DNA of 64,000 nucleotides from Bacteroidota bacterium (GTDB lineage Bacteria; Bacteroidota; Bacteroidia; Bacteroidales; JAGONC01), in NCBI GenBank assembly GCA_026391695.1, contig JAPLDP010000076.1, forward strand, positions 1-64,000, written 5' to 3'. The notes beneath the pieces are model-generated. The model was not told the DNA's origin. It ran no database searches and saw nothing but the letters and a program-made list of their open reading frames with translations. Made by a program: the position numbers and the translations under genes. Below are positions 27,915 to 47,210 of this stretch, piece after piece. Every line of letters begins with the position of its first letter. Position 1 is the stretch's first letter.

Positions 27915-30509
27915 ATGAGAGAAGCATCAAAGGAAATACAGAGAATAAATGTCACAGTTACTGTTGATGGCAGGAAGTTGGAAGTCCCTGAAGGGTTCAC
28001 TGTGTTGCAGGCTTCAAGAAAATCAGGTAGTTATATTCCCACCCTCTGTTATCTTGACAATTTGCCCAATTATGGAGGATGCCGCCTTTGCATGGTGGAG
28101 ATAAAAAATATGAGGGGTTTTCCCACTGCCTGCACTACACCTGTGACTCAGGGTATGGAAATAATCACAAAAACGGATGAGCTTCAAGCACTTAGAAGAG
28201 ACATCCTGGAATTATTACTTACTGAACACCCGTATACATGTCTTGTCTGCGGCGACAAAAATGATTGCGGGCAATATATGCACTCCACCAGAAAAGTTGG
28301 AGTGACAACAGGTTGTAATTTTTGTACCAGTAACGGTGACTGTGAGCTGCAAAACCTTGTGGATTATCTTGAGCTTACGGACATGAAGTTCCCTATTTCA
28401 TACCGTAACGTTGCACCTGTGAGAGATAATCCCTTCTATGAACTGGATTATAATCTTTGCGTTCTTTGTGGCCGTTGTGTGAGGATTTGTAATGATGAAC
28501 GCCACAGCAAAGTACTAGCATTTGTTCAGCGCGGGAATTCGACACTCGTGGGTACGGCATTCAATGAGTCACAGAAGGATGCAGGTTGTGAATACTGTGG
28601 TGCCTGTGTGGATGTCTGTCCTACAGGTTCTCTATCAGAAAAAATGGGGAGCTGGGTTGGTCTTCCTGACAGGTCAATAAGTACAACATGTGTTTCATGC
28701 TCCATTGGCTGCGAAATGAACATAAACACAAAAGGAGAAAGGGTTGTGAATGTCGGACCGGCTCCGGGAAAACGTACTGATCCTCCCCAGCTGTGCGTTC
28801 GTGGTAAATTTGTTCCACCCGATATAATCCACCATCCGGCACGTATCACCTCCCCACTTATCAAAAAAGAAAACCGGTGGGCTGAAGTAGGCTGGAAAGA
28901 AGCAATTCATTATTCTGCCAGTCATCTTGAACAATTCAGGGGTAATCGGTTTGGAATGATCGGATCGGCTCAGGATACGATTGAAAACAATTATATCCTG
29001 CAGAAATTTGCAAGAAAAATAATGCGGTCAAATAACGTTGACCTTCTATCCTCTTATCCTGAAAAAGAATTAATTAAAAATATCAACGACTACCATAAAG
29101 TTTTTCCTCCATTCAAAGTGAACGATATAACCGATGCGGATACTGTTTTTTTGATAGGTTCCAGGGCGTATTTATCCCATCCGATCATTGAAAACAAGAT
29201 CAGAAAAGCGTATAGCAATGGCAGACAGGTTGTTGCTGCAAGTACACATAACAGCAGAACAACGGATTTTACATCGTATCACACAACTTATTCTCCCGGT
29301 GGAGAATCTGCTTTTCTTTCCTTATTGCTGTTCAGTTTGGCAAGAAAAACGAAGAGTCCTGCTGCAAAAGAAATTCTCCGGCAGCTTAAGGATCTGGAGA
29401 TTCATGAGGCCATGGCCAGATGCGGTATCACACCTGGAGCGCTGAAAAACCTATCGGATATAATCTTCCATTCCGGAAATACGGTAATCATTGTTGGTGA
29501 TGAAATTTTAAGAAATGCTGACTGTCTGAACAGTTTTAATGCTTTAGTGAATCTTCAGCTCCTGCTGGATGGGCATTGCAGGATGATGTTCCTTCTCGAT
29601 GAAGGTAACCGTTATGGTGGTACGTATGTAGGCATGCACCCATATTACCTCGCCGGATTTGATGAGCTTGATGATGAAAAAACTCTGAAAAAATGGTCAC
29701 ATCAATGGCAGACCAAACTCAATCAAACACCAGGATATTCTTCTGATGAAATGATTAAAAAAATAAATGGAGATGGCATCAGTGCACTGTTTATTGTCGG
29801 TGATATACCGCCTGATAAACGGTTATCTGGTTTAAGTTTTCTTGTCCAGCAAAATATGTTCTTCACCGAAACGTCGAAATTCGCAAATGTATTCTTCCCA
29901 CTGACCAGTCATTTTGAGGATAGTGGTCATATCATGAATCTGGAAGGTGAACTAAAAAAGAACACCCGTGTAATTCAACCGCTTGAAGGCACAAAACCGG
30001 TATGGCAGGTTATTTCAGAGATTTCAGATGGCTTAAATGAAACCGGATTTAATTATAAACAGCCAGAGGATATCTTCACCGATCTTTGTTCATTGATCGA
30101 TCTGACTTTTACCTCGCCTGCAAAGAATGTTTCGAAAGTAAAACCACTTACAACCAGATCAGTGGGAAATAATGATTTACCGGTGTCACTCATCATTGAA
30201 CCAAACGCCTTTCATTATTTTGGCAATATTTTATCAGCACACATACCCGACATGAAATCAATCAGGGATGAAGGTATATTATTTATTTCTGCATTGATTT
30301 CAGAGCAGTTATCCTTAATTGATGGTAAGGAGGTAAATATAATAACAGGATTTGGCAAGATTAATACGACCGTAAGGATTAATCATGAACTGGAAGGAAA
30401 TATTGCCTTTTTCAGGCCAACTTGGGAACATATATCAAGTATTGCTGATGGTATTAACATTGATCAGTATCATATTCCTGTAAAAATTGAAGATCTGAGA
30501 AATGATTAA
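27915..30509 (+). CDS. NuoG/FdhA-like iron-sulfur protein lacking a metal-ligand cysteine
   Basis: The 864-residue protein opens with a [2Fe-2S] ferredoxin (C45, C56, C59, C73), followed by an expanded cysteine-rich insertion (HPYTCLVCGDKNDC and CNFCTSNGDCELQ at about 107-147), two [4Fe-4S] motifs (CVLCGRCVRIC, CEYCGACVDVC) and a molybdopterin-oxidoreductase-like part from CVSCSIGC to the C-terminus. The residue that binds molybdenum in formate dehydrogenase is missing (RSNNVDLLSS region has no C, U or S at the usual H-C-H site), and there is no hydrogenase H-cluster motif. It is therefore probably an electron-distribution subunit with no Mo or H2 chemistry of its own. It overlaps the next gene by 8 bases (ATGATTAA). 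Confidence 0.85.
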   Translation: MREASKEIQRINVTVTVDGRKLEVPEGFTVLQASRKSGSYIPTLCYLDNLPNYGGCRLCMVEIKNMRGFPTACTTPVTQGMEIITKTDELQALRRDILELLLTEHPYTCLVCGDKNDCGQYMHSTRKVGVTTGCNFCTSNGDCELQNLVDYLELTDMKFPISYRNVAPVRDNPFYELDYNLCVLCGRCVRICNDERHSKVLAFVQRGNSTLVGTAFNESQKDAGCEYCGACVDVCPTGSLSEKMGSWVGLPDRSISTTCVSCSIGCEMNINTKGERVVNVGPAPGKRTDPPQLCVRGKFVPPDIIHHPARITSPLIKKENRWAEVGWKEAIHYSASHLEQFRGNRFGMIGSAQDTIENNYILQKFARKIMRSNNVDLLSSYPEKELIKNINDYHKVFPPFKVNDITDADTVFLIGSRAYLSHPIIENKIRKAYSNGRQVVAASTHNSRTTDFTSYHTTYSPGGESAFLSLLLFSLARKTKSPAAKEILRQLKDLEIHEAMARCGITPGALKNLSDIIFHSGNTVIIVGDEILRNADCLNSFNALVNLQLLLDGHCRMMFLLDEGNRYGGTYVGMHPYYLAGFDELDDEKTLKKWSHQWQTKLNQTPGYSSDEMIKKINGDGISALFIVGDIPPDKRLSGLSFLVQQNMFFTETSKFANVFFPLTSHFEDSGHIMNLEGELKKNTRVIQPLEGTKPVWQVISEISDGLNETGFNYKQPEDIFTDLCSLIDLTFTSPAKNVSKVKPLTTRSVGNNDLPVSLIIEPNAFHYFGNILSAHIPDMKSIRDEGILFISALISEQLSLIDGKEVNIITGFGKINTTVRINHELEGNIAFFRPTWEHISSIADGINIDQYHIPVKIEDLRND

Positions 30510-31317
30510 AATATTGGACAAAGCACATATTGCCCCCAACATACACTGTTGTACTGTAGATGCACCGGATATAGCGCGCAAGGCAAAAGCAGGTCAATTT
30601 GTCATTGTAATACCTGACGAATTCAGTGAGAGGATACCGATTACTATTTCAGATTGGGATACAGAAGCAGGTACGGTGACCATTGTATTTTTGGAGATTG
30701 GTGCAGCAACCCAGCGCTTTGCTGAATTACAGCCTGGTGATACTATTTACTCTTTTACCGGACCATTGGGAAGACCTTTCGAGTTTGATAATTTTGGTAA
30801 AGTGGCTCTGGTAGGAGGATGTTATGGTATTGGTGGGATCTATCCTGCTGCTAAAGCACTTAAGGAAAAAGGTAATGAAGTAATTTGCTATTCGGAGGCG
30901 AGAAGTAAGTTTTTATTATACTGGAATGATAAATTGGAAAAGGTATCTGACGAGGTACGTTATGCCACGGTTGATGGATCATTAGGATTCAAAGGTCATG
31001 CTTATGACTTTCTAACAACTAATCTGCAATCGGGTGAAAGGTTTGAAAGGGTAATGGCAGTTGGCTGTACGTATATGATGTACCGGATTTCTGAAGCCAC
31101 ACGCCCGTTTGGCATCAAAACAATTGTCAGCATGAATCCTGTAATGATTGATGGTACCGGAATGTGCGGAGCATGCCGTTTGGTAGTGAAGGGTGAGACA
31201 AAATTTGCCTGTGTGGATGGTCCTCATTTTGATGGCCACCAGGTGGATTGGGATGTTGTATTATCGAGGCGTAAAGCTTATCTGGAGGAAGAGATCATAT
31301 CAAAAGAAAGGTGGTAA
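30502..31317 (+). CDS. NfnA-like ferredoxin-NAD(P)+ reductase subunit, second copy
   Basis: The 271-residue protein is a paralogue of that at 23531. It shows the FAD-binding segment (KAGQFVIVIPDEFSERIPIT), the pyridine-nucleotide region (VALVGGCYGIGGIYPA) and the [2Fe-2S] site (GTGMCGACRL, then CVDGPHFDGH). It is translationally coupled to the NuoG-like gene before it and followed by nfnB one base after its stop (TAACATG). This places NfnAB in one operon with NuoEFG, so the five proteins probably form one complex. Confidence 0.9.
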   Translation: MIKILDKAHIAPNIHCCTVDAPDIARKAKAGQFVIVIPDEFSERIPITISDWDTEAGTVTIVFLEIGAATQRFAELQPGDTIYSFTGPLGRPFEFDNFGKVALVGGCYGIGGIYPAAKALKEKGNEVICYSEARSKFLLYWNDKLEKVSDEVRYATVDGSLGFKGHAYDFLTTNLQSGERFERVMAVGCTYMMYRISEATRPFGIKTIVSMNPVMIDGTGMCGACRLVVKGETKFACVDGPHFDGHQVDWDVVLSRRKAYLEEEIISKERW

Positions 31318-31318
31318 C

Positions 31319-32716
31319 ATGGCTATTATTAGTCCAACAAAGACCCCAATGAGGGAGCAACCGCCTGAGGAACGCATACGGAACTTTAGAGAAGTGCCCT
31401 TCGGGTATACTCCTGATGAGGCGGTGAGTGAGGCACAGCGGTGCCTGCAATGCAAGAAACCCTTATGTATAACAGGCTGCCCTGTAGAGATCGACATTCA
31501 GGGTTTCATTGCTTTGCTTGTTCAAAAGAAATTCAAAGAAGGGATATCGAAGATCAAGGAAAAAAATATCCTGCCGGCTATATGTGGTCGTGTTTGTCCA
31601 CAAGAGGAGCAATGTGAGAAGCAGTGTATCGTAGGGAAGAAGAACGAACCGGTAGCAATAGGCCGGCTTGAGCGGTTTCTGGCGGACTGGGAGCGTAACG
31701 AAGGCGAAATAGAAATACCACATCAACCTGAATCTACAGGTAAAAAAGTAGCCATCGTCGGTGCAGGTCCTGCAGGAATTACAGCTGCAGCTGATCTGGC
31801 AAAGATTGGCCATAAAGTGGATATGTTCGAAGCATTGCATCAGCCTGGAGGCGTACTCGTATATGGTATCCCTGAATTCAGACTTCCTAAGGAAATAGTT
31901 TTTAAAGAAATAGATTATTTAAGGAAGCTGGGTGTCAATGTATATACCGATACCGTCATTGGAATGATTAAAAGCATTGATGAACTGCAGGAATCCTACG
32001 ATGCGGTCTTCCTCGGTACAGGTGCTGGATTACCCTGGTTTCTTAAGGTCCCGGGTGAAAACCTCAATGGCATTTATTCTGCCAATGAGTACTTAACGCG
32101 TGCGAATCTGATGAAAGCCTATCTTTTCCCCAAATACAAAACGCCGATCATAAAAAGAAAAAGAGTGGCAACAGTAGGAGGTGGCAATGTCGCCATGGAT
32201 TGTGCTCGCACAGCTCTGCGACTTGGCGCGAAGGAATCCATCCTTATATACAGGCGTGCCAGGGAACAGATGCCTGCACGGGCTGAAGAGATACATCATG
32301 CGGAACAGGAAGGGATTATATTCCATCTCTTGTCCAACCCTGCTGCCTTTTATGGTGATAAGAACGGTTGGGTCAGGGAAGCGGAATGTATTAAAATGGA
32401 ACTCGGTGAACCTGATGAATCTGGCAGAAGAAGACCTGTACCCATCGAAGGTGCCAATTTCATGGTTTCCATAGATGTGGTCATAATTGCTATCGGAAAT
32501 AGTCCTAACCCTCTCATCCATTCGACAACAAAAGATATCGAGGTTACAAAATGGGGAACTATCATAACCGATCCGGCTACTGGAAAAACATCCAAAAGAG
32601 GCGTTTTTGCCGGTGGTGATGTGGCTACAGGTGCTGCTACAGTCATACTTGCCATGGGAGCCGGGAAAATCGCTGCAAGAGGTATACATGACTACCTGCA
32701 AACAGGAATCTGGTAA
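31319..32716 (+). CDS. NfnB/GltD-like flavoprotein, second copy
   Basis: Counted from ATG 31319, the protein has 465 residues and starts MAIISPTKTPMREQ. The ATG directly follows the nfnA stop and is preceded by AAAGAAAGGTGG, one of the few Shine-Dalgarno-like sequences here. Motifs are CLQCKKPLCITGCPV and CGRVCPQEEQCEKQC for the [4Fe-4S] clusters, VAIVGAGPAGITAA for FAD, VATVGGGNVAMDCA for NAD(P)H and FAGGDVATGAATVILAMGAG. It lacks the zinc-ribbon module of its paralogue at 21707, but a free double zinc-ribbon gene follows on the opposite strand. Annotation as glutamate synthase small subunit would be misleading because no large subunit is near. Confidence 0.9.
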   Translation: MAIISPTKTPMREQPPEERIRNFREVPFGYTPDEAVSEAQRCLQCKKPLCITGCPVEIDIQGFIALLVQKKFKEGISKIKEKNILPAICGRVCPQEEQCEKQCIVGKKNEPVAIGRLERFLADWERNEGEIEIPHQPESTGKKVAIVGAGPAGITAAADLAKIGHKVDMFEALHQPGGVLVYGIPEFRLPKEIVFKEIDYLRKLGVNVYTDTVIGMIKSIDELQESYDAVFLGTGAGLPWFLKVPGENLNGIYSANEYLTRANLMKAYLFPKYKTPIIKRKRVATVGGGNVAMDCARTALRLGAKESILIYRRAREQMPARAEEIHHAEQEGIIFHLLSNPAAFYGDKNGWVREAECIKMELGEPDESGRRRPVPIEGANFMVSIDVVIIAIGNSPNPLIHSTTKDIEVTKWGTIITDPATGKTSKRGVFAGGDVATGAATVILAMGAGKIAARGIHDYLQTGIW

Positions 32717-33686: not shown

Positions 33687-36600
33687 TTACAACACTGGGA
33701 TCTCATCCCATGATATGACTGCAATTCTTTTTTTGCCATCCATTCTGATAATCAAAGGTTTATTGAACCTGACATGGCGAAAAAAGCCCGATTTACCGAC
33801 CAGTTCCTGCTTTTCAAGGACATCATAGCGGATGAATGTTTCCGGATTTTCTTCATAAACTGAAAAATACCCGACGTTCATAGATGTCAGGTTATGAAAA
33901 AAGTGCGATCCGGAGGAGGCATCCAGTGGATATCCCTCCAGGCTGGTTTCAACGATGATCTTCGCATTGGAGATGTGGGTCCAGTTGACCGGTATGCCTA
34001 TCCAGCGGTCGCGTGTACCCCAGCGGCCCGGACCGATTAGGATGTAGTTCTTGTTTTCTTTTCCCATGAGGATATTCATCTGTTCTATTTCAGCAGCCAT
34101 CTCAACAGTCTTGCTTTTATCGAAATACGTTTTTTCCACATATATCACATCCCTGATATCCCTGATCATGCCATTTCCCATGCCTTTTTCGGTATACAGG
34201 AGTATTTTTTGCCTGTTGATCTCCTTCATGTTGATGTTGAAATCCTGTGCGCTGCCGATAAGTGGTTTGATCTGTAACAGATAGAACGATGCCTTCATGT
34301 CCTCATCCTTGTTCAGATCAACAGCAAATTCGATTTCCACAGGTGAGCCAAGCGCTTCTTTGACCACATCAAGCACAACCTCAATGGTTTGGGATAGAGG
34401 CACATAATTGTATTTCAGGATATCGGCAAAATTGACGATCCGTGGTCCGGGGTGGGAAATACCCGAAACAATACGGCTGTTTTCAATGTCATATACCGAT
34501 GCTGAGTGAGTCAGGGTTCCATGACGCTCCGCATCGTCAATATCCAGCCGAATAAGACCAGCCGTATCACCCTCCAGCAGGTCAACATCTTTTTTGGACA
34601 GGTCCACAGCAAAAAATTGTAACTGTGAATTAAGATACTGATCTTTGGGAGAATTGATTTCGACAGCCGGGTATTTCGGTGAAAACCGGTAGGCTTTTTC
34701 GCCCTCCACCACATATTTGCCAAGGCCAAGTGCAATAACTGCAAAACCCTCTTCCGGCTTCATATATGAAAACGGATAGTAATTATACGACTGGGCTACG
34801 CCGCTGATATGGGGATAAAAGACATTTTCAAATTGATTGCCAACAACTTCCTGTATGATGACCGCCATTTTTTCCTCTTCGAGCTTATAATGAACCGATT
34901 GGATATAGCTTTTCGACAATGATGAATACACAGATGCAAAAACCAGTTTTATGGCATCCATCAGTTGCTGGAGCCTCACATTAAAATCAGGATGGCAGTT
35001 GGGCAGCAGATAGGTCTCAAATATGCCGGCAAATGGCTGCATCAGGGAGTCTTCAAATAATCCTGAAGATCTTACGGCCAACGGTTTGTTTATCAGCTTG
35101 AGAATGATCTTCAGTTTTTTAATCAGACTTTCAGTCAGCTTGCTTTTGATAAACATTTGTTTGATCTCTTCGTAATCTGTTTCACCAATGACGATATCAT
35201 ACAGGTTATTTCGCTGAATGAAATACTCAAATTCTTCGGTGCCGATGACCGATGTTTTCGGAGCACGGATATTGATATTCGGGATGTGTTCCGAAAAATC
35301 GTAATTATAAATGAGCGTATTGATGAAAGCCAGACCACGGCCTTTGCCTCCCAGTGAGCCAGAGGTCAGGCTCACCACGTTGCTTTCGTCAAGTATCGCT
35401 GATTCCTCAAAGGGGATGACCTTCCCCTTATTTTGTTCATTGCGGAATTGCTGGATGACGCTGATGAGGTATTCTCTGATATTCTGCGGATTTTTGAAGT
35501 CGGTGACCTTATGTGGCAGTAGTATCCGCGCTGCCTGTATCTCACCGCGGGCCATCAGCCACATGGAAAAATGATCACGCTGGGCATGATAGATAAGTGA
35601 TTCATCAGGGATAGTCTTGAGCTGGTTCTCAAATTCCTTCAGGGAACGGGCAACAGCTATCTGTTTCCCCATGCTGTCCTTGTAAACAAAATTTCCGAAA
35701 CCCAGAAAATGTGTGATGAAACTCTTTAGATCCTGGCTCAGACTGTCGGAGTTTTTATTTATAAAAGTGGCCTTCATCTCAAAGGCTTTTTCCTGGTTTG
35801 ATAGCTCCGACGATTGGATGATGATGGGTAATGCCGGAATCTCTTTACGAACATATTCCACCAGGTTGATGCCCGCCATTTCATCCATCCTGCTGCCTTT
35901 TTCAAATTTAATATCCGATATAAGGCAAAGGATATATTCCTTGTACTTATCAAATATATAAATGGCATCCTCATAGCTTGAGGCAAGGATGATTTTTGGC
36001 CGTGCCCGCAGCTTCAGAACTTTATATAATTCATCCGTAGCCACATCATCAATGATGCGGCGGGTCTGCTCCATCACGATCTGGTGAAGTATAGGCAGAT
36101 AACGGGAATAATATTTTGCTGAGTCCTCAACGAGAAGGATAATTCTGACTAATCCTACCTTGGTGTCATTCTCAACATTGATTTTATCTTCTACATGTTT
36201 GATCATGGCCAGGAACATCTTGGACTCACCATTCCAAATGAAAACCTTATCGATATTGGGAAGTTTTTTATCGCTGCCTTCAAAAAGCGCCAGGTCGGAA
36301 TTGTTATTCAGAAGCAGGAAAACCGGAATATAGGGGAATTCCAGTTTAACCATTTCACTAAGTACGATGGGCAGATTCTTATCAACTCCCACCATAATGA
36401 CGACCAGGTCGAAGTGTTTGATATGGAGCTGATTCATTGCTTCTTCCGGCGTGGACACGCCTGTAATACGCGGTATGGAGGTGAGATTGAGTTGCTGATA
36501 GTCACCCAACACATATTCTGAGAATTTGCCCTCTTTTTCGATGCTGTAAGCATCATAGAGGTTGGCAACCAGGAGAATCTCTTTTACCATAAAAGGCATC

Positions 36601-37613
36601 AGGTCATGGTAAATATCACGGTTATAGTTGCTTTTATTGAGGAAAGTCTGAAGGAGCTGCCGGCTATATTTGGATGTTCCATCATCAGAGGAGTATTTTT
36701 CGCGTACAGTTTTGTCATCAAGTGTCTTCCTGAGAAGAGCCTTGCCTTTGACACTGTTCAGATAGCCGGCGATGAGGCTGGCCAGGTTGTTAATCAGCTC
36801 TCTTTCCTCTTTCATGAAAGGGCCTTCATCCGATTCAGGAAATTCTTTCGTATAAAAGATATCAATAGCACCTTCCTGGTTGTCAATGGTTTCGAAATGC
36901 TGACTCTGCGTCCATTTGGTTTCTTTAAAATTTTGACTTTTAAATACCATGCCATCAAACTGAATACGTGCAACGGCAAACTCCGGATATTGCCATGCCT
37001 GTGGCAGGATCTGGCAAATCTGCAATAAAGCTTCCTCGATAGGTTTTCCTTCTTTCAGGATGCTGCTTGTGCGGTTTATGCATGCCAGCTCCTTTAATCT
37101 CTCCTGCGTTTCATGCGAACGTTCGAGACTTTTGAGTGAATTTAGATAACTGGCGATGATCCCGGCGATGCTGATTATCAGGTCCCTTTCTTCTTTCAGA
37201 AAAGGTCCCTCATCCAGTTCAGGGAAATCTTTAAGATAAAATATTTCGATGTTACCGCGCTTATTGTCACTGGTTTCAAAATCCTGTGATTGTGTCCATC
37301 TGGTTTCTCGGAAATTCAGGTTGGTAAATGTCCTGTTATCAAAAGTGATCCTGACGCAGGTGTAATCCGGATATTGATAGGCAGCCTGAAGAATGGAGCA
37401 AATCTGTTGAAGGGTATCATCAACTGAATGCTGAGCCCTGAGCAGGCGGACTGTCCGGTTTATAGCTGTCAGCTCTTTGATACGTTCCTGCTTCTCTTGC
37501 AGAAGCTGCTGGTAATGGACCGGATCAAGGATTATCTGCCTGGTTTCCACGTCGTCCGGTTCAGGTTTTTCAACTGCTTTCCCGACCTTTTTTGTTGAAC
37601 CTTTTACTGTCAT
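33687..37613 (-). CDS. GAF-receiver-like-PPDK_N multidomain protein
   Basis: The 1308-residue protein has two GAF-like domains (about 45-160 and 175-290) that are recent duplicates, since WTQSQDFET and WTQSQHFET and DEGPFLKEERDLI and DEGPFMKEEREL recur. Two receiver-like domains follow (about 343-470 and 490-640; the second keeps LVED and a D in ISDIKF). From about 748 (SLGGKGRGLAFIN) the ATP-grasp pyruvate phosphate dikinase N-terminal domain runs to about 1080 (AVRSSGLFED, EFAVD). The histidine and PEP-binding domains of PEP synthase are absent, so it cannot make PEP by itself. I suggest a signalling or phosphotransfer role coupled to energy state, but this is unproven. It lies between the zinc-ribbon gene and gdhA. 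Confidence 0.75.
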   Translation of the reverse strand: MTVKGSTKKVGKAVEKPEPDDVETRQIILDPVHYQQLLQEKQERIKELTAINRTVRLLRAQHSVDDTLQQICSILQAAYQYPDYTCVRITFDNRTFTNLNFRETRWTQSQDFETSDNKRGNIEIFYLKDFPELDEGPFLKEERDLIISIAGIIASYLNSLKSLERSHETQERLKELACINRTSSILKEGKPIEEALLQICQILPQAWQYPEFAVARIQFDGMVFKSQNFKETKWTQSQHFETIDNQEGAIDIFYTKEFPESDEGPFMKEERELINNLASLIAGYLNSVKGKALLRKTLDDKTVREKYSSDDGTSKYSRQLLQTFLNKSNYNRDIYHDLMPFMVKEILLVANLYDAYSIEKEGKFSEYVLGDYQQLNLTSIPRITGVSTPEEAMNQLHIKHFDLVVIMVGVDKNLPIVLSEMVKLEFPYIPVFLLLNNNSDLALFEGSDKKLPNIDKVFIWNGESKMFLAMIKHVEDKINVENDTKVGLVRIILLVEDSAKYYSRYLPILHQIVMEQTRRIIDDVATDELYKVLKLRARPKIILASSYEDAIYIFDKYKEYILCLISDIKFEKGSRMDEMAGINLVEYVRKEIPALPIIIQSSELSNQEKAFEMKATFINKNSDSLSQDLKSFITHFLGFGNFVYKDSMGKQIAVARSLKEFENQLKTIPDESLIYHAQRDHFSMWLMARGEIQAARILLPHKVTDFKNPQNIREYLISVIQQFRNEQNKGKVIPFEESAILDESNVVSLTSGSLGGKGRGLAFINTLIYNYDFSEHIPNINIRAPKTSVIGTEEFEYFIQRNNLYDIVIGETDYEEIKQMFIKSKLTESLIKKLKIILKLINKPLAVRSSGLFEDSLMQPFAGIFETYLLPNCHPDFNVRLQQLMDAIKLVFASVYSSLSKSYIQSVHYKLEEEKMAVIIQEVVGNQFENVFYPHISGVAQSYNYYPFSYMKPEEGFAVIALGLGKYVVEGEKAYRFSPKYPAVEINSPKDQYLNSQLQFFAVDLSKKDVDLLEGDTAGLIRLDIDDAERHGTLTHSASVYDIENSRIVSGISHPGPRIVNFADILKYNYVPLSQTIEVVLDVVKEALGSPVEIEFAVDLNKDEDMKASFYLLQIKPLIGSAQDFNINMKEINRQKILLYTEKGMGNGMIRDIRDVIYVEKTYFDKSKTVEMAAEIEQMNILMGKENKNYILIGPGRWGTRDRWIGIPVNWTHISNAKIIVETSLEGYPLDASSGSHFFHNLTSMNVGYFSVYEENPETFIRYDVLEKQELVGKSGFFRHVRFNKPLIIRMDGKKRIAVISWDEIPVL

Positions 37614-37836: not shown

Positions 37837-39192
37837 ATGGCAAATCCAGTTCATGAAAAATTGGTCAAAGATTTCATGGCCAAAGTTATCGCAAAGAACC
37901 CCGGTGAGATTGAATTTCACCAGGCAGTCGAAGAAGTAGTTGCAACACTGATTCCATTCGTGGAAGAAAATCCGAAATACAAAGAAGCAAAGATCCTTGA
38001 ACGGTGTGTTGAGCCGGAACGGGTTATCCTTTTCAGGGTCCCATGGGTTGATGGCAAGGGCGAGATACAAATAAACAAAGGTTACAGGATTGAGATGAAT
38101 AGTGCCATCGGACCCTATAAGGGTGGATTGAGGTTTCACCCGACGGTGAACCTTGGCATTCTCAAATTCCTTGCTTTTGAACAGGTCTTTAAAAACAGTC
38201 TGACGACCCTTCCGATGGGTGGTGGTAAAGGTGGTTCTGACTTCGACCCCAAAGGGAAATCCGACATGGAAGTGATGCAGTTCTGCCAGAGTTTCATGAA
38301 TGAGTTATTCCGTCATATAGGCCCTGATACAGACGTTCCGGCAGGCGACATTGGTGTCGGCGGCAGGGAAATAGGTTATTTATTTGGACAATACAAGAGG
38401 TTACGTAATGAATTTACCGGCGTTCTTACCGGCAAGGGCCGTGAATGGGGTGGCAGCCTCATCAGACCGGAAGCTACTGGTTATGGCCAAGTTTATTTTG
38501 CTGAAGAGATGTTAAACACCAAAGGTGACAGCATGAAAGGAAAGATATGCCTCGTTTCCGGATCAGGTAATGTGGCACAGTATGCAACGGAAAAAGCCAC
38601 ACAAATGGGCGCCAAGGTGGTTACCATGTCCGACTCCGCCGGATTCATCCATGATCCCGATGGCATTAATGCCGAAAAGCTCGCCTTTATCATGCACCTG
38701 AAGAATGTGAAAAGGGGAAGAATAAAGGAATATGCCGACAAATATGGTGTCAAATATTATGAAGGCCTCCGTCCATGGGGTGTTAAATGTGATGTGGCAT
38801 TACCAGCGGCAACCCAGAACGAAGTCAATGGCGATGATGCCAGGACACTGATCAAAAACGGTTGCCAGGTCGTATCAGAAGGCTCCAACATGCCATCCAC
38901 ACCCGAAGCTATTGACGTATACCTGGGAGCCAGGATACTCTATGGTCCCGGAAAGGCTGCCAATGCCGGTGGTGTTGCTACATCAGGTCTCGAAATGTCA
39001 CAGAACTCACTGAGGTTGTCATGGACAAGAGAAGAAGTGGATGCACGGTTACATCAGATCATGAAAGATATCCATACCACTTGCGTGAAATGGGGTAAAG
39101 AAAAAGATGGATACACAAATTATGTGAGAGGTGCTAACATTGGTGGATTTGTCAAGGTGGCGGAATCTATGCTGGCTCATGGTGTCGTTTAA
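37837..39192 (+). CDS. gdhA: Glutamate dehydrogenase, probably NADP-dependent
   Basis: The 451-residue protein matches the hexameric bacterial glutamate dehydrogenases: NKGYRIEMNSAIGPYKGGLR, LPMGGGKGGSDFDPKGKS with the catalytic lysine region, PAGDIGVGGREIGYLFGQYK, RPEATGYGQVYFAEEM and VSGSGNVAQYATEKA for the dinucleotide fold. It interconverts 2-oxoglutarate plus ammonia and glutamate. NADP use is inferred from similarity to the long bacterial enzymes. Its place next to two nfnAB-containing operons, which move electrons among NAD(H), NADP(H) and ferredoxin, suggests a shared need for NADPH. It has its own upstream region of about 220 bases with no clear box. Confidence 0.95.
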   Translation: MANPVHEKLVKDFMAKVIAKNPGEIEFHQAVEEVVATLIPFVEENPKYKEAKILERCVEPERVILFRVPWVDGKGEIQINKGYRIEMNSAIGPYKGGLRFHPTVNLGILKFLAFEQVFKNSLTTLPMGGGKGGSDFDPKGKSDMEVMQFCQSFMNELFRHIGPDTDVPAGDIGVGGREIGYLFGQYKRLRNEFTGVLTGKGREWGGSLIRPEATGYGQVYFAEEMLNTKGDSMKGKICLVSGSGNVAQYATEKATQMGAKVVTMSDSAGFIHDPDGINAEKLAFIMHLKNVKRGRIKEYADKYGVKYYEGLRPWGVKCDVALPAATQNEVNGDDARTLIKNGCQVVSEGSNMPSTPEAIDVYLGARILYGPGKAANAGGVATSGLEMSQNSLRLSWTREEVDARLHQIMKDIHTTCVKWGKEKDGYTNYVRGANIGGFVKVAESMLAHGVV

Positions 39193-41600: not shown

Positions 41601-42125
41601 TTATTTCTTCTTTCTTTCCATTTTCAATTCTCTTTCTATTAAAAAATCATTTATATCAATACACTTTACGCCATTTTTTGCTGAAACGCCTGGAATTCTG
41701 TTTGGTTTTACTTTACTCTCATTGGTTATCAATACACAATTGTGAGTTTTGCAATATGCAATCAAATAAGGGTCGGCTTCTTCTTTTCCTTCTGCCTGTT
41801 TTTTTGCATCAAAAAATCCTGAGTTATATTCCTCATTAATTATTGGAATAGCTGCGTTTATACTTGCAGCATCTGTCGGGACAACTAAAAGCTTTTTCCA
41901 TTTCTTCATCCATTTCATTAAAAAATCTTGCTTGCCTTCGTAATTGTTTATTTCATCTTCAACAAAATCAATTGTTTTGAAACGACCTCGTTTGATTAAT
42001 TCTTCAATTTCTTCCCAAATAGCAATGAATACTGGGTTGTCATATTTAAAAGTTGATTCAAGCATTATTAAACCACTTGTATCAATCACATAAATAATAT
42101 TTCCCTGATTAAAATCTAATTGCAT
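41601..42125 (-). CDS. DUF4411 PIN-type toxin
   Basis: The 174-residue protein has the PIN-fold acidic residues (YVIDTSGLI near the start, DFVEDEI, then EEADPYLIAYC and VLITNES) and fits DUF4411 (PF14367), predicted RNases. It follows the XRE-ImmA/IrrE gene by 3 bases, a known toxin-antitoxin style pairing in which the larger protein is the antitoxin. Its stop is 14 bases from the start of DUF4340, the left edge of the inserted block. Confidence 0.87.
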   Translation of the reverse strand: MQLDFNQGNIIYVIDTSGLIMLESTFKYDNPVFIAIWEEIEELIKRGRFKTIDFVEDEINNYEGKQDFLMKWMKKWKKLLVVPTDAASINAAIPIINEEYNSGFFDAKKQAEGKEEADPYLIAYCKTHNCVLITNESKVKPNRIPGVSAKNGVKCIDINDFLIERELKMERKKK

Positions 42126-42128
42126 TTT

Positions 42129-43277
42129 CTAAGCATTTAACAATTGACGAGTTTTGGGAATGTATGAAAGCTTCACTCCCAAAAAATCTGAAAGGTCTTT
42201 AAGGTCAATTCTATTTTGGTCAAATGCTGAAAATGCAAGAGAGATATATGTTCTACCTTTTTCTTTAATTGTTTCTTTTGCAATGTTTCTTCCTTCCGGT
42301 TTTTTTGCTCTGCCGAATGTTGGTTTATTCCAGGCTTGATGCCTGTCCTTGTAATATTCAAGAGTTGTAAGTTTGTTTTCTAACAAACTTCTTAAAATAG
42401 CCAATGGACCAACGTGAAAATGATTTGCCAATTCAATCAAATCTTTTTTTGCCCACATCTTTTTTCCTTTTGACTTTTGTTCTATTACAATATTCATTTG
42501 CAAAAGTTCAGATGTCGGAATTAGTATTTCAGCCGCAAAAGCATTACACCATTTTTCAATCTGCTGATTGATGTTTTCTGTTAAATCGCACAACCCACCG
42601 TCAGTTAATAGTATATGACCGAGTTCGTGAAATAGCGTGAAAATTTTTGCTGACGCTTGTTCTCCACCCCTTTTGATTCCAATTATTGGCACAATTTCAT
42701 CCACCATTGAAAATCCTCTCAACTGGTCTTGAGTTAAACTCAATTGAAAAACTGCAATTCCTAACGATTCCACTTTTTCAATATATGCCTCTAAAGCATA
42801 ATTGATATTTTCCAATTGTCTTATCTCGCCTAAATTCCATTCTTTGCGTAGCTTATTTGCTATTGTTGCAGGATTAGCTTGTATTGATGCTTTGTATTGG
42901 AAACGGGGAATTGCAATGTCGGCATCTTGTTTTAGTTCAACTAATGAAACAACAAGTGCCCGGGCTTTACGAATTGCCATAATGGTTTTTTCGTGAAAGT
43001 TTCCTAAATCTTTTGAGTCAATAGTTCTTCTGTCGGTTGGAAGTGGCTTTTCCTTTGGAGGTTTAGTCAGTAATAGAGTTGCAATAGTTCTTTTATAAGC
43101 TTTTGAAAGTTCCTTTAATTCGTCTAATGTTGGTTGTTTTTCTCCTTCTTCCAATTGAATTAAACGCTTTGCTGATATTCCGGTTTTTTCAGATGCATTT
43201 GTTCGGTTCAATACTATAGCTTCTCTTGCCCAAACAAGAACTTCATGGTTTACCGCTATATTAATTTCCTCTTTCAT
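42129..43277 (-). CDS. XRE helix-turn-helix protein with ImmA/IrrE metallopeptidase domain
   Basis: The 382-residue protein has an N-terminal helix-turn-helix (about 20-68: REAIVLNRTNASEKTGISAK, RLIQLEEGEKQPTL) and a C-terminal M78-type peptidase domain with the zinc motif HELGH at about residue 215 and the downstream CNAFAAEILIP helix. Such proteins occur as antitoxins or regulators of phage and mobile-element functions and cleave their repressor targets. It precedes the DUF4411 toxin gene by 3 bases and follows the restriction-modification gene by about 35 bases, so the three genes form one minus-strand block. Confidence 0.87.
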   Translation of the reverse strand: MKEEINIAVNHEVLVWAREAIVLNRTNASEKTGISAKRLIQLEEGEKQPTLDELKELSKAYKRTIATLLLTKPPKEKPLPTDRRTIDSKDLGNFHEKTIMAIRKARALVVSLVELKQDADIAIPRFQYKASIQANPATIANKLRKEWNLGEIRQLENINYALEAYIEKVESLGIAVFQLSLTQDQLRGFSMVDEIVPIIGIKRGGEQASAKIFTLFHELGHILLTDGGLCDLTENINQQIEKWCNAFAAEILIPTSELLQMNIVIEQKSKGKKMWAKKDLIELANHFHVGPLAILRSLLENKLTTLEYYKDRHQAWNKPTFGRAKKPEGRNIAKETIKEKGRTYISLAFSAFDQNRIDLKDLSDFLGVKLSYIPKTRQLLNA

Positions 43278-43313
43278 CTATTACCTTTCAAATTTAGAGT
43301 TAATTTAACTTTT

Positions 43314-46300
43314 TCAATTCCCTTCAATTATTTTTTGTTCTTCCGATGTAATATCATAAAGATTATAAACCAATTCATCTATTTCTCTTTCGTTTTCTGT
43401 ACTGTCAATGCCTTGTTGTTTTTGAGCAGTTATTTTATCAACCAATGTCGCAATTTTATTGGCTTCTGAATCTGTTGGTTTATAAATAGGAATTTCAAGT
43501 AATGGCTCTTTATCTAATTGATAAGCATTGCCTTGCATTTTGCCTTTTTTATGAAGCCAGAAAGCAATCAGTTTTGAGTTGAGTAAACCAGTTAAATATT
43601 TTAGATTTATTCTATTGCTTTGAACTACTAAAAATGCCCGTGAAACATAACAATCAAAATCTGTATATGTAAAACGAGGTTCATTTGGACATTTTCTTAG
43701 GGCAAATATTTTTTCACCTTCAAATAAATGTTGTTCTCTTGTTCTATGTAAACCGTAGGGTTTATTATCCGAAGTAATAATGCTCCTGAATTTATCCAAA
43801 TGCTCTTTGATTTTGGGATAATCATTTATCGGAATCTTTTTTGTTTCCTTGTCGAGTTTACCAATGTCTGATTTTGTGTAAAGTATCCAATACTGGTTTT
43901 CAGGATGGCCGGAATATTTTTGTAATTGCTCTGTTGTGTAATACGGTTTTATTATTTCTTTTTCTTTTTTGCTGAACCTCATATTGTCAAATTCAATTTG
44001 ACTTAAAACAAAAACTCCGTCACCAACTTTTGCTTTTCCAATTAGCTTTTCACAATTCGCTTTACTAACAAAATCTTGAAGAACATCAATTCCTGAACCA
44101 ACTTCCGCTTGTAGTTCTAAATCTCTATTTGCTTTCTCTCTAAGAAAAAAATTATGTTTTGCTTTTATTTTATCAAGCAGTTCAGAGTTTCTATCAGTAT
44201 TAAAAGTCAATGGCTTATTTAGCAAAATTTCTTTACTGATTTTTGGGAAAAGTAAAATTGTGTTTTCTGTCTCCAATCCAGTAAGTAAATTTAAAACGTT
44301 TTCTTGGCTTAGTTTTTCGCCTTCTAATTTTCTGTAATCAAAAGCATAGTTGTCGGCTTCTTGATTGTTCTTGAAAAGCATAATCATTGTTTGAATAGAT
44401 GCGTTTTCAAAAATCATATACGCTCCAAAATCAGTAAGATTAATTATTTGGTTGTTTTTTATAACAATGTTTCTAAAGTTTGAAGCACCTGCGTTTGTTA
44501 CCCAGTTATTTGTAGCAATATAACACAGGTTGTAATTTGGTTTTAATAGTTTCAACCCTAAATCACCAAACAAATACCAAATATCCATTTTACCTTGGTA
44601 GCATTCTTTTGTTCTTAGTCCATTAAAAGCATCACGATTCGCATCCTCTTTAATATATGGTGGATTTCCAATAATTAAATCAAAGCCCTCAAAGTCTCCA
44701 TTGTTATTCAGCACTTCTGGGAACTCAAAACGCCATTCAAATGCGTTTTTATAAATGGCATTATTAATTATAGCTTCTTTTTCAGCCTCCAACTTTACTA
44801 ATTTTTTTGATGCCTTATCAAGTCTGTCTTTTAGCTCTTTAGGTATTTTTTCACCCCATTGTTGTTTTCGGTTCAGGTCGCTCATAACATTTAGTACTTC
44901 ACCCCTTGCTTTCGAAATTTTTAATTTAAACGGGTCGTCAAGGTTAGTGCGGAAGTCGCTTTTAATGGTGTCAATTATTATTTGCAAACCTCTTTTTACT
45001 TCACGGTTTTTTTCGTTTTTGTATTCATTTACAAAACCTCTGTATGCTTTTATATCATACTTTATGCTTTTCAATGCCTTACTCAAATCAGCATCTAATG
45101 GAAAACGGCTCAATAAACTGTTTCCGCATTTTATATTGATGTCAATATTGGGAAGTGTTTCCAATTCCAAAAAGTCGGTTTCTTCTTTATAGTAAGCGTT
45201 TTTCAATAGTTCGATCCACAAACGTAAACGGCAGATTTTTACCGAGTTTGGATTGATATCAACACCAAACAAACAGTTTTCGATAAGGGTTTGCTTTTCG
45301 TGAAAGAGTGTTTTTTGCAGATGCTGCATTTCTTTACTTACAGGTTTGCCATTTTGCAATTTATACTCTACACTATTGCCTTTAGGATCGGTAATAATGA
45401 GTTCGTCGTTTATAATTTCAATTTCATAACCGCTTATGCTGTTACCATGCTCGTCAGCCAATATCCCCAATTCGGCTTTAATACAAATAATTTCATTGAG
45501 CGACGAAACCAGGTAGTGTCCTGAACCTACCGCAGGGTCGCAAATACGAAGTGAGTTAATTATTTCATTGGCTCTTAAAATATCCTGTGTTTTATATAGC
45601 CGTCGAGTGTAGTTTTTTACATCTTCAAATTTGTCGAAAAGATTTTTTCCGTTTTTGGATAAGGCTTCGTTAAACTTTTCGACTACAGCCAGTCGGATTG
45701 CTTGCCTGCACATATGCATGGTAATAAAGCCGGGGGTAAAAATAGAACCGTCTTTGTACCCGTTAATTTTTTCAAACACTTTACCCAAAACCGAAGCATT
45801 GATAATGGTTTTGTTATCCTCCTGAACATCCTCTGTTCCTTCACTTGCAAAGTTGTAAGCATTTAAAAATTTAAAAAGATACTCGAGCGTAGGCAGCCTG
45901 TCTGCCTTCTTTTTTATATCTTTTAGAATGGTTGTGTTTATTAATTCAAGTTGTCCATCATTGTCAAGCGAATTAAGTTTTATGGTTTGGTCTTCCAATT
46001 CGCTAATTTCAAAAAGCGAACTGTTTAAGTAAGGAACTTGGCTGAATTTGCCTATTATAGCTTCAGTTCTGTCTTTCAGGTTTACAGCTAACACTTTATG
46101 GAAAAGTTTAAACAATTCGTCAAAGTCATTTATTATAGCACTATTTAGGAAAAGGTATTTTTCTTTGTTTCCAGGATGATAAGTGACTAATTGCCCTTCT
46201 AATAATTTTAAAAATAAAATTCTGTTTATCCAGGTAATGCAAAGCTCTAACGAAATATTAAAAATCCGTTCTTCTTCTGCTTCTCCATAGATTGTCTGGT

Positions 46301-47210
46301 CAGGTAAGCGATGTAATGAATCTTCGGTAAGAATTGCATCAATTGTTGATTCAATAAGCGAAGCAGGATTTTTGTTTTCTAACTTTCGCATTATAATGTT
46401 TTTACCTCCTTCTTTTGCTTCTTCTAAACCAATTATATGAAGCAATTCCTTGTAAAACCTTTCGTCAAGCGAATTGCTGTCGTTTGGCGTTACAATTTTT
46501 AATAGATGCTGTGGCGAAAGAATTTTTTGCAATGCTGTTAATTCCCGGTCATCTTCCTTTTTGTTGTTCCGTAAAATGGTGTCGTATTCCCTTATGTCAA
46601 AGTAAACACAAGGTATTTCAACATCTATTTTCTCAATTATTTTAGCAACTTCCTCATAAAAGAACGGATTGTCTTTTTTATCGTTGATTTTTGTTTCGTA
46701 TAGTTTATTTATTTGCTTATTGCGGTTAATATGTTTGTCAAAATGGTTTACGTCTATAATGTACCATTCGTTTACATTGGTTATTACAAGTTGTTTCAGT
46801 TGGTTGTTGCCAACTTTGTTTCTCTCGTCTAAGTAGTAAAGTATTAATTCGTGAAGTGCTTTTTTGTTTGGGTTGTCACCCGAGACCATTTCATTAATGT
46901 TTGTTGGTCTTTTGGCTTCAATGATAACGCCAACTTCGCTGTCGGTGGTTTTGCCTAAATGAATTACTAAATCTTTCTTGTCTTTGGTGTTTATAGCGTT
47001 AGTGTCCTTGTAATAGGTGTCACGCAAAAAGTCACGCAGGTCGTTTTTTAAATGTTCTTCGCTTTCGTCTTTAGGTCGGTTTTCAATAACGCTAATCTTG
47101 TCAAGCAAAGTAATGAGGTTGGTTTTGAAAACATCTATTTCGCTTCTCAAAGGTCTTTGCTTTAAGAATGCTTTAAGTGCTTTTTTTGGTGTCTGTTTTA
47201 ATAACTTCAT
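43314..47210 (-). CDS. Type IIG-like restriction-modification protein (Eco57I/PglX-like methylase)
   Basis: The 1298-residue protein combines functions in one chain. Near residues 85-125 it has a PD-(D/E)xK nuclease-like motif (LVIHLG, then VGVIIEAKRP). In the middle it has the gamma-class DNA adenine methylase motifs: motif I as DPAVGSGHYLVSS and motif IV as NPPY (IIGNPPYIKED). The C-terminal part (LTGLLNSKLIAFWLHKKG) is a TaqI/Eco57I-type specificity region. It therefore probably cuts and methylates DNA by itself, with cutting and protection in one polypeptide. It is visibly more A+T rich than the flanking gld genes. A BREX PglX role is less likely, as no brx genes are near. The recognition sequence is unknown. 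Confidence 0.85.
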   Translation of the reverse strand: MKLLKQTPKKALKAFLKQRPLRSEIDVFKTNLITLLDKISVIENRPKDESEEHLKNDLRDFLRDTYYKDTNAINTKDKKDLVIHLGKTTDSEVGVIIEAKRPTNINEMVSGDNPNKKALHELILYYLDERNKVGNNQLKQLVITNVNEWYIIDVNHFDKHINRNKQINKLYETKINDKKDNPFFYEEVAKIIEKIDVEIPCVYFDIREYDTILRNNKKEDDRELTALQKILSPQHLLKIVTPNDSNSLDERFYKELLHIIGLEEAKEGGKNIIMRKLENKNPASLIESTIDAILTEDSLHRLPDQTIYGEAEEERIFNISLELCITWINRILFLKLLEGQLVTYHPGNKEKYLFLNSAIINDFDELFKLFHKVLAVNLKDRTEAIIGKFSQVPYLNSSLFEISELEDQTIKLNSLDNDGQLELINTTILKDIKKKADRLPTLEYLFKFLNAYNFASEGTEDVQEDNKTIINASVLGKVFEKINGYKDGSIFTPGFITMHMCRQAIRLAVVEKFNEALSKNGKNLFDKFEDVKNYTRRLYKTQDILRANEIINSLRICDPAVGSGHYLVSSLNEIICIKAELGILADEHGNSISGYEIEIINDELIITDPKGNSVEYKLQNGKPVSKEMQHLQKTLFHEKQTLIENCLFGVDINPNSVKICRLRLWIELLKNAYYKEETDFLELETLPNIDINIKCGNSLLSRFPLDADLSKALKSIKYDIKAYRGFVNEYKNEKNREVKRGLQIIIDTIKSDFRTNLDDPFKLKISKARGEVLNVMSDLNRKQQWGEKIPKELKDRLDKASKKLVKLEAEKEAIINNAIYKNAFEWRFEFPEVLNNNGDFEGFDLIIGNPPYIKEDANRDAFNGLRTKECYQGKMDIWYLFGDLGLKLLKPNYNLCYIATNNWVTNAGASNFRNIVIKNNQIINLTDFGAYMIFENASIQTMIMLFKNNQEADNYAFDYRKLEGEKLSQENVLNLLTGLETENTILLFPKISKEILLNKPLTFNTDRNSELLDKIKAKHNFFLREKANRDLELQAEVGSGIDVLQDFVSKANCEKLIGKAKVGDGVFVLSQIEFDNMRFSKKEKEIIKPYYTTEQLQKYSGHPENQYWILYTKSDIGKLDKETKKIPINDYPKIKEHLDKFRSIITSDNKPYGLHRTREQHLFEGEKIFALRKCPNEPRFTYTDFDCYVSRAFLVVQSNRINLKYLTGLLNSKLIAFWLHKKGKMQGNAYQLDKEPLLEIPIYKPTDSEANKIATLVDKITAQKQQGIDSTENEREIDELVYNLYDITSEEQKIIEGN

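Follow-up and report, generated by a model that had tools for sequence, protein, structure and literature searches.

What does a protein that joins sensor-like domains to the ATP-binding half of phosphoenolpyruvate (PEP) synthase do next to a glutamate dehydrogenase (GDH) gene? The question is raised by a 64-kb stretch of DNA from a Bacteroidota bacterium (assembly GCA_026391695.1, contig JAPLDP010000076.1, positions 1 to 64,000; hereafter the window), whose list of open reading frames (ORFs) contains a single intact ORF of 1308 amino acids at 33687-37613 on the minus strand, divergent from gdhA. An earlier annotation of this DNA (the original prediction) had suggested that the protein might sense redox or energy state and pass phosphate to a separate partner. 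We favor another reading, to which we give a probability of roughly 45%: that the protein responds to signals and serves specifically to regulate GDH, having been assembled around the catalytic half of a dikinase of the PEP synthase, pyruvate phosphate dikinase (PPDK), or rifampin phosphotransferase type. The fusion adds a new variant to the known dikinase superfamily, its genomic association with GDH is strong in more than one phylum, and GDH is the most likely partner of the family.

The association was first apparent within the order Bacteroidales, where we searched 41 genomes (the window's own and 40 relatives) with the protein and with gdhA. The family was present in 39 of the 41 genomes, GDH in 39, and both in 38; one genome had neither gene (G005), one had GDH only (G007), and one, which is 88% complete, had the family only (G013). 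In 15 of the 38 genomes with both, a family gene lay within 2.5 kb of GDH on the same contig (G000, G001, G002 [twice], G004, G011, G015, G016, G017, G018, G024, G025, G026, G028 [twice], G031, and G036 [twice]), compared to about 0.25 expected from uniform placement, a model that ignores contig ends and shared ancestry, so that neither the expected numbers nor the P values given here are literal. At one linked locus (L016, on contig 18 of G001), the adjoining gdhA is a fragment with two stop codons, and a second GDH lies elsewhere in that genome. As a control, genes with the phosphohistidine domain PF00391 were located in 13 genomes and shared a contig with GDH in 0 of the 12 having GDH, a small sample of fragmented assemblies. 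Two forms of the family occur in relatives. One resembles the protein of the window, mostly carries GAF-like repeats, and shows 46 to 73% identity across long stretches; the other, the short form, has about 1000 residues and mostly 36 to 39% identity. They lie side by side in five genomes (G011, G018, G026, G031, and G036), and the short copy of the window's own genome is on contig 77.

A wider genome scan, from which we took the best 80 of at least 593 loci, gave a similar picture. These 80 loci are mostly from Bacteroidota, and the remainder are titled Spirochaetes, Acidobacteria, Cloacimonadota, Riflebacteria, Gemmatimonadales, Myxococcales, and a Thermoplasmatota archaeon; most named loci come from metagenome-assembled genomes, whose titles can be wrong, and many end at contig ends. 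GDH was the commonest neighbor family in the best 80 (31 loci, or 30 by clustering), followed by korB-like genes (13), korA-like genes (12), and response regulators (12). The arrangement varies. GDH is divergent in most window-type loci that have it, downstream on the same strand in others (L072, L073, L077, L079, and L089), on either side of a tandem pair (L044, L058, L059, and L062), where each of two paralogues can flank its own GDH (L044 and L062), or downstream of such a pair (L106 and L111). It lies 88 bp downstream in L100 and 68 bp upstream in L119. As in the window, GDH and family members are accompanied by an nfnA-like and gltD/nfnB-like gene set in L119 and in L160, where family member, GDH, nfnA-like, and nfnB-like genes are consecutive except for one short ORF that separates the family member from GDH. 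Genes resembling korAB (2-oxoacid:ferredoxin oxidoreductase) lie directly upstream on the same strand in L056, L057, L063, L065, L067, L070, L074, L076, L082, L083, and L085; the alpha subunit scores above its NCBIfam cutoff and the beta subunit below, and 11 of the best 80 loci have a korB-like gene on the same strand no more than 320 bp upstream. The recurring GDH, korAB, and nfnAB-like neighbors are consistent with a nitrogen and redox theme.

The link with GDH extends beyond Bacteroidota. Twenty loci were listed as non-Bacteroidota, and 16 were taken further (L095, L101, L107, and L110 were left out); all 16 genomes encode a family I GDH, the best match being 61 to 75% identical to that of the window. 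We then sampled 80 genomes of Spirochaetota, the phylum of the genome carrying L100 (G048, titled Spirochaetaceae). The family was found in 13 of these and GDH (E ≤ 1e-100) in 30, with both in 12; GDH was thus present in 12 of the 13 genomes with the family and in 18 of the 67 without it (Fisher P = 1.4e-5, uncorrected for ancestry). GDH lay within 3.5 kb of the family gene in 8 of the 13 (G048, for both copies, G092, G098, G106, G109, G119, G122, and G130) and was unlinked in G068, G081, G120, and G123 and not found in G095. Ten distant copies, spread over 9 of these 13 genomes, align with the family model only in its later part (from about position 320 to 420): their receiver columns are empty, and their ATP-grasp residues and the histidine corresponding to H1237, discussed below, are kept. 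Five of these nine genomes belong to the eight with GDH linkage. Distant members also occur 57 bp from a divergent ELFV dehydrogenase (L162:2707-7253, with a C-terminal nucleotidyltransferase domain, PF01909, E = 9e-10) and 19 bp from gltB, the glutamate synthase large subunit gene (L168:3-6026). The neighborhood, which the original prediction had proposed to compare among relatives, is therefore not random in either group, although many copies do not lie beside GDH.

The ATP-using core of the protein is of the dikinase type. The ATP-binding half of PEP synthase, as first proposed, is clearly present: residues 753 to 1132 match PPDK_N (PF01326) at E = 3e-39, with 135.6 bits against a cutoff of 27. 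We modeled residues 325 to 1308 with AlphaFold2 from 40 sequences (mean pLDDT, 85.6; pTM, 0.73). The model contains a pair of receiver-like units followed, after a middle region, by the ATP-grasp and C-terminal domains, and its best Foldseek matches were PleD and PPDK. In structural comparison with VIA, rifampin phosphotransferase (5hv1; Z = 26.8, 2.9 Å over 287 residues) and PEP synthase (2ols; Z = 26.7, 4.1 Å over 357 residues, model 406 to 980 on chain 10 to 467) tied for first, followed by PPDK (1dik; Z = 18.8, 5.1 Å over 350 residues, model 406 to 980 on chain 8 to 511). In an alignment of 157 distinct matches to the family profile, all of them ORFs of 700 residues or more and some of them truncated copies of one gene and hence not independent, K757, R848, E1095, and Q1114 were found in all 157. 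The loss of these residues, by which the original prediction would have been refuted, is therefore not observed. By motif, K757 and R848 appear equivalent to Lys22 and Arg117 of rifampin phosphotransferase, an enzyme that, as described in PMC4844700, lost all activity when Lys22 was replaced by Ala and was blocked at the second step by Arg117Ala.

The proposed phosphate-carrying residue is H1237, which is histidine in all 156 ORFs that align there. It lies in a C-terminal domain that gave a confident model on its own (residues 1120 to 1308; pLDDT, 90.0; pTM, 0.88). In a second look with VIA, covering the top 1000 Foldseek chains, rows 1 to 7 were phosphohistidine swivel-type domains (Z = 5.5 to 5.9), led by the phosphoryl-carrier domain of PPDK (2fm4; Z = 5.9, 4.0 Å over 120 of 128 residues), which is followed by five rows of PPDK central domains and, from pyruvate kinase 2e28, by the extra domain. 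In the model, a strand (1217 to 1223) and a loop lead to H1237 at the first turn of a helix (1237 to 1244), followed by another strand (1248 to 1252), a topology that, compared by eye, fits the surroundings of the PPDK carrier histidine. These results are suggestive of a swivel-like domain, which we do not assign to PF00391. The protein ends at residue 1308 after this domain, and a PEP/pyruvate-binding domain is absent. The original description of a protein without a phosphohistidine domain thus holds insofar as the C-terminal 189 residues match no Pfam family, PF00391 included, but not insofar as a swivel-like domain with an invariant histidine appears to be present. A free PF00391 partner was sought in the window's own genome, and the search gave only two PF00391 genes, each of which also carries PPDK_N. 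Transfer of phosphate to a separate histidine-domain protein accordingly finds no support, the protein having its own swivel-like domain.

In front of this core lies what looks like a signaling module. The second of the two receiver-like units is a true receiver, with fold and phosphorylation-site residues intact: its structural matches reach a Z of about 13 at about 2 Å over 113 to 122 residues (VIA; model residues 164 to 319), and among the core ORFs E496 is kept in 145 of 146, D497 in 131, D567 in 142, S601 in 145, and K620 in 143. Pfam Response_reg matches residues 529 to 615 with a score of 19.3, below its cutoff of 30.2. One structural match, 3luf, covers both units. The first looks degenerate in the alignment; the two originally predicted REC-like units are both confirmed as receiver-like.

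The N-terminal repeats proved harder to name. Both had been called GAF domains and recent duplicates, and neither description was confirmed. Pfam listed no GAF domain among matches at E ≤ 10; searching PDB sequences by profile gave only a 35-position match (E = 0.064); and profile comparison with seven true GAF_2 domains gave a probability of 3.8% (P = 0.011, 40 columns). We retain "GAF-like" as a label for this weak profile similarity and the appearance of the sequence. Pfam matches to UME were rejected as spurious, since the best straddles the repeat border and, taken alone, repeat 1 matches at E = 0.012 and repeat 2 not at all. The repeats are 56% identical to one another, and a tree built from 15 such repeats places repeat 1 with copies from L012 and L016 and repeat 2 with copies from L012, L013, and L014, loci from other genera of the same family as the window genome. 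Because each repeat groups with its counterpart in other genera, the duplication is not recent. By tblastn, loci carry up to four GAF-like copies, and many carry none. The same module stands at the N terminus of a HisKA/HATPase kinase on contig 28 of the window's own genome (L010), and a sensor role for it is therefore plausible. That kinase could also be considered a possible phosphate donor for the receiver. A candidate signaling partner is a NarL-like response regulator, encoded next to or close to the family gene in 12 of the best 80 loci (L073, L080, L081, L146, L155, and others) and in two of the regions compared below.

Taken together, a phosphohistidine-capable core, an optional signaling front end, and a persistent GDH neighbor lead us to posttranslational control of GDH. 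The state of the protein would depend on its GAF-like repeats and on its receiver, the latter being phosphorylated at D567 by some kinase. The ATP-grasp domain would then use ATP to phosphorylate H1237 of the swivel-like domain, with release of AMP and phosphate, and the swivel would alter the activity of GDH, either by delivering the phosphate to it or through a conformational change that depends on phosphorylation. In this scheme we infer the histidine phosphorylation, the direct targeting of GDH, the direction of the effect, and the signal.

Several observations weigh against this reading. Linkage was not found in 23 of the 38 Bacteroidales genomes with both genes, and 18 of the 30 Spirochaetota genomes with GDH are without the family. 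We compared twenty regions (18 around copies in unlinked genomes, that of G025, and that of the own-genome short copy) with 11 reference proteins; none of the 18 showed GDH, which appeared in G025 only, and a NarL-type regulator was found in two (G022 and G038). No GDH residue clearly tracks the presence of the family among 58 sequences, in a comparison that is flawed because L197, L198, L207, and L213 form very long branches and are probably wrong ORFs. Other neighbors, namely korAB, response regulator, and SOD genes, also recur. As for the swivel-like domain, the criterion of VIA itself does not separate rows 1 to 7 from row 8 and those after it (TRiC and others, Z = 5.4 and below), which lie within 1 Z and count as ties; this is why we treat that evidence as only suggestive. 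Foldseek with the C-terminal model gave no match at E ≤ 0.001, profile comparison (hhalign) of the domain with 16 PF00391 domains was negative, and when the ATP-grasp and C-terminal domains were jointly compared with PPDK-type sequences in three hhalign modes, the C-terminal part was not reliably aligned. Finally, swivel domains have been described with the motif T/SxxGGxxxH (as given in PMC12167813), which is not kept here, the family motif being SxG[ST]HFF.

That divergent motif, together with the GDH association itself, would also suit an ATP- or AMP-binding allosteric partner, whose domains bind nucleotide and GDH without phosphoryl transfer. The invariance of the catalytic residues and of the histidine speaks against this idea, and we consider it improbable, if still the best of the alternatives. 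Scarcely behind it comes a small-molecule dikinase, in which the C-terminal part would phosphorylate a metabolite of the glutamate/2-oxoglutarate pathway, with GDH, korAB, and gltB as pathway neighbors. Characterized relatives, as far as PMC4844700 and PMC12167813 describe them, do act on small molecules, and the korAB and gltB neighbors agree with such a role; yet the models show nothing beyond the swivel-like domain that looks like a separate domain for binding a substrate, and the front end is of the sensor type, so we think this unlikely. We are a little more skeptical of a built-in phosphorelay from ATP to H1237 to D567 (or back), a self-contained His-Asp device that would affect GDH indirectly: core members retain the receiver, the ATP-grasp residues, and H1237 together, but eleven distant members without receiver-column residues keep the catalytic set, and several of them keep the GDH neighbor. 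Least probable of all is that the GDH link reflects gene-order inheritance without functional meaning, the protein acting elsewhere in redox or stress metabolism, since, for all the copies away from GDH and the recurrence of korAB, SOD, and response regulator genes, the GDH neighbor turns up in varied gene orders and in more than one phylum, accompanies either paralogue as well as distant members, and GDH and the family also co-occur beyond their linkage.

The protein shares features with several known systems. Rifampin phosphotransferase has in common with it the ATP-grasp domain, a far C-terminal swivel (swivel-like in the present protein), the Lys22/Arg117-type residues, and the lack of a PEP/pyruvate barrel (as described in PMC4844700), whereas the window protein has no rifampin-binding domain between the two, carries receivers and GAF-like repeats in front, shows another swivel motif, and neighbors GDH. 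PEP synthase and PPDK share the ATP-grasp fold and residues, and their central phosphohistidine domain can be superimposed, at low Z, on the C-terminal domain found here; the window protein, unlike them, has no PF00391 match, no PEP/pyruvate domain, and a sensor front end. In the account of PMC12167813, the phenol-type dikinases HpeHI, CreHI, and PpsAB likewise have dikinase parts recruited to a new target, but the parts are split over two proteins and the substrates are phenols. With the enzymatic-output response regulators PorX and PleD the protein shares the order of receiver(s) then effector, the effector here being a dikinase-type ATP-grasp domain with a swivel-like domain.

Glutamate dehydrogenase is a main ammonia-assimilating enzyme of Bacteroides and its relatives. 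Reversible switching of this enzyme, and its need for a neighboring gene, were reported decades ago, and to our knowledge the factor has not been identified; in B. fragilis, GDH is said to undergo reversible inactivation. A 3-kb segment from downstream of gdhA reportedly restored GDH activity in E. coli, and the short form of the family, at about 3 kb, would fit such a segment. The title of a 1996 report by Baggio and Morrison, as it appears in the reference list of PMC4539542, concerns trans-acting gene(s) downstream of gdhA and GDH activity in B. thetaiotaomicron. Such a factor would, as we propose for our gene, be encoded near gdhA and affect GDH in trans; we count the title in favor of a GDH regulator, and that factor may belong to the present family. 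Passages of PMC12596196 and PMC4595636 call BT_1971 a catalase, those on Prevotella nitrogen metabolism in PMC5552732 mention no such GDH factor, and in the parts of the open-licence PMC literature consulted we recognized no paper connecting this dikinase-like family with GDH. The boldest form of our proposal, that these proteins are an unrecognized class of protein-directed dikinase in which a receiver- and GAF-like-governed ATP-grasp domain and a divergent swivel switch GDH by phosphohistidine chemistry in several phyla, and that they are the missing trans-acting factor of Bacteroides, we regard as doubtful, if clearly likelier than any of the alternatives above. Were GDH control by this family borne out, dikinase chemistry would no longer be limited to small molecules but would also serve to regulate a metabolic enzyme, and receiver-domain signaling would gain a new output. 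In either form, the family is a widespread and testable candidate for GDH control, with K757, H1237, and D567 as mutable sites, and its GDH association makes an old question about the control of this enzyme testable.

Table 1. Positions of the dikinase-like gene, its predicted domains, and its neighbors in the window
Feature	Position	Strand	Basis or content
Whole gene, 1308 aa	33687..37613	-	GAF-like ×2, receiver-like, receiver, ATP-grasp (PPDK_N), swivel-like C-terminal domain
GAF-like repeat 1, residues 38-165	37119..37502	-	56% identical to repeat 2
GAF-like repeat 2, residues 168-296	36726..37112	-	Repeat comparison
Apparently degenerate receiver-like domain, about residues 343-486	36156..36587	-	AlphaFold2 model; degeneracy read by eye from alignment
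Receiver domain, about residues 488-643; E496, D497, D567, S601, K620	35685..36152	-	Structure matches and conserved residues
ATP-grasp domain PPDK_N, about residues 753-1120; K757, R848, E1095, Q1114	34254..35357	-	Pfam, structure, residues
Swivel-like C-terminal domain, residues 1121-1308 (188 residues), GPGRWG and SxG[ST]HFF motifs	33690..34253	-	Model, VIA
H1237 codon, proposed carrier histidine	33903..33905	-	Conservation; model topology
gdhA, NADP-type family I glutamate dehydrogenase, divergent neighbor, proposed target	37837..39192	+	NCBIfam NF006929 above cutoff; linkage
nfnA-like and gltD/nfnB-like electron-transfer genes	30502..32716	+	Pfam domains
Zinc-ribbon-like ORF, 291 aa	32723-33598	-	On electron-transfer side of dikinase-like gene

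The position of the gene between electron-transfer genes and gdhA was borne out, with one addition: on the electron-transfer side, a zinc-ribbon-like ORF intervenes before the nfnAB-like and nuoEFG-like genes, which we take to be of the nfn and nuo types. The 291-residue product of that ORF, with zinc-ribbon-like repeats, is 61 to 66% identical to proteins in six related loci. Farther along the window, 41601-47210 on the minus strand holds what appears by eye to be a defense-like set, with proteins that would be a methylase/restriction-type protein (1298 aa), a helix-turn-helix and metalloprotease-like protein of the ImmA/IrrE type (382 aa), and a PIN/DUF4411-like protein (174 aa).

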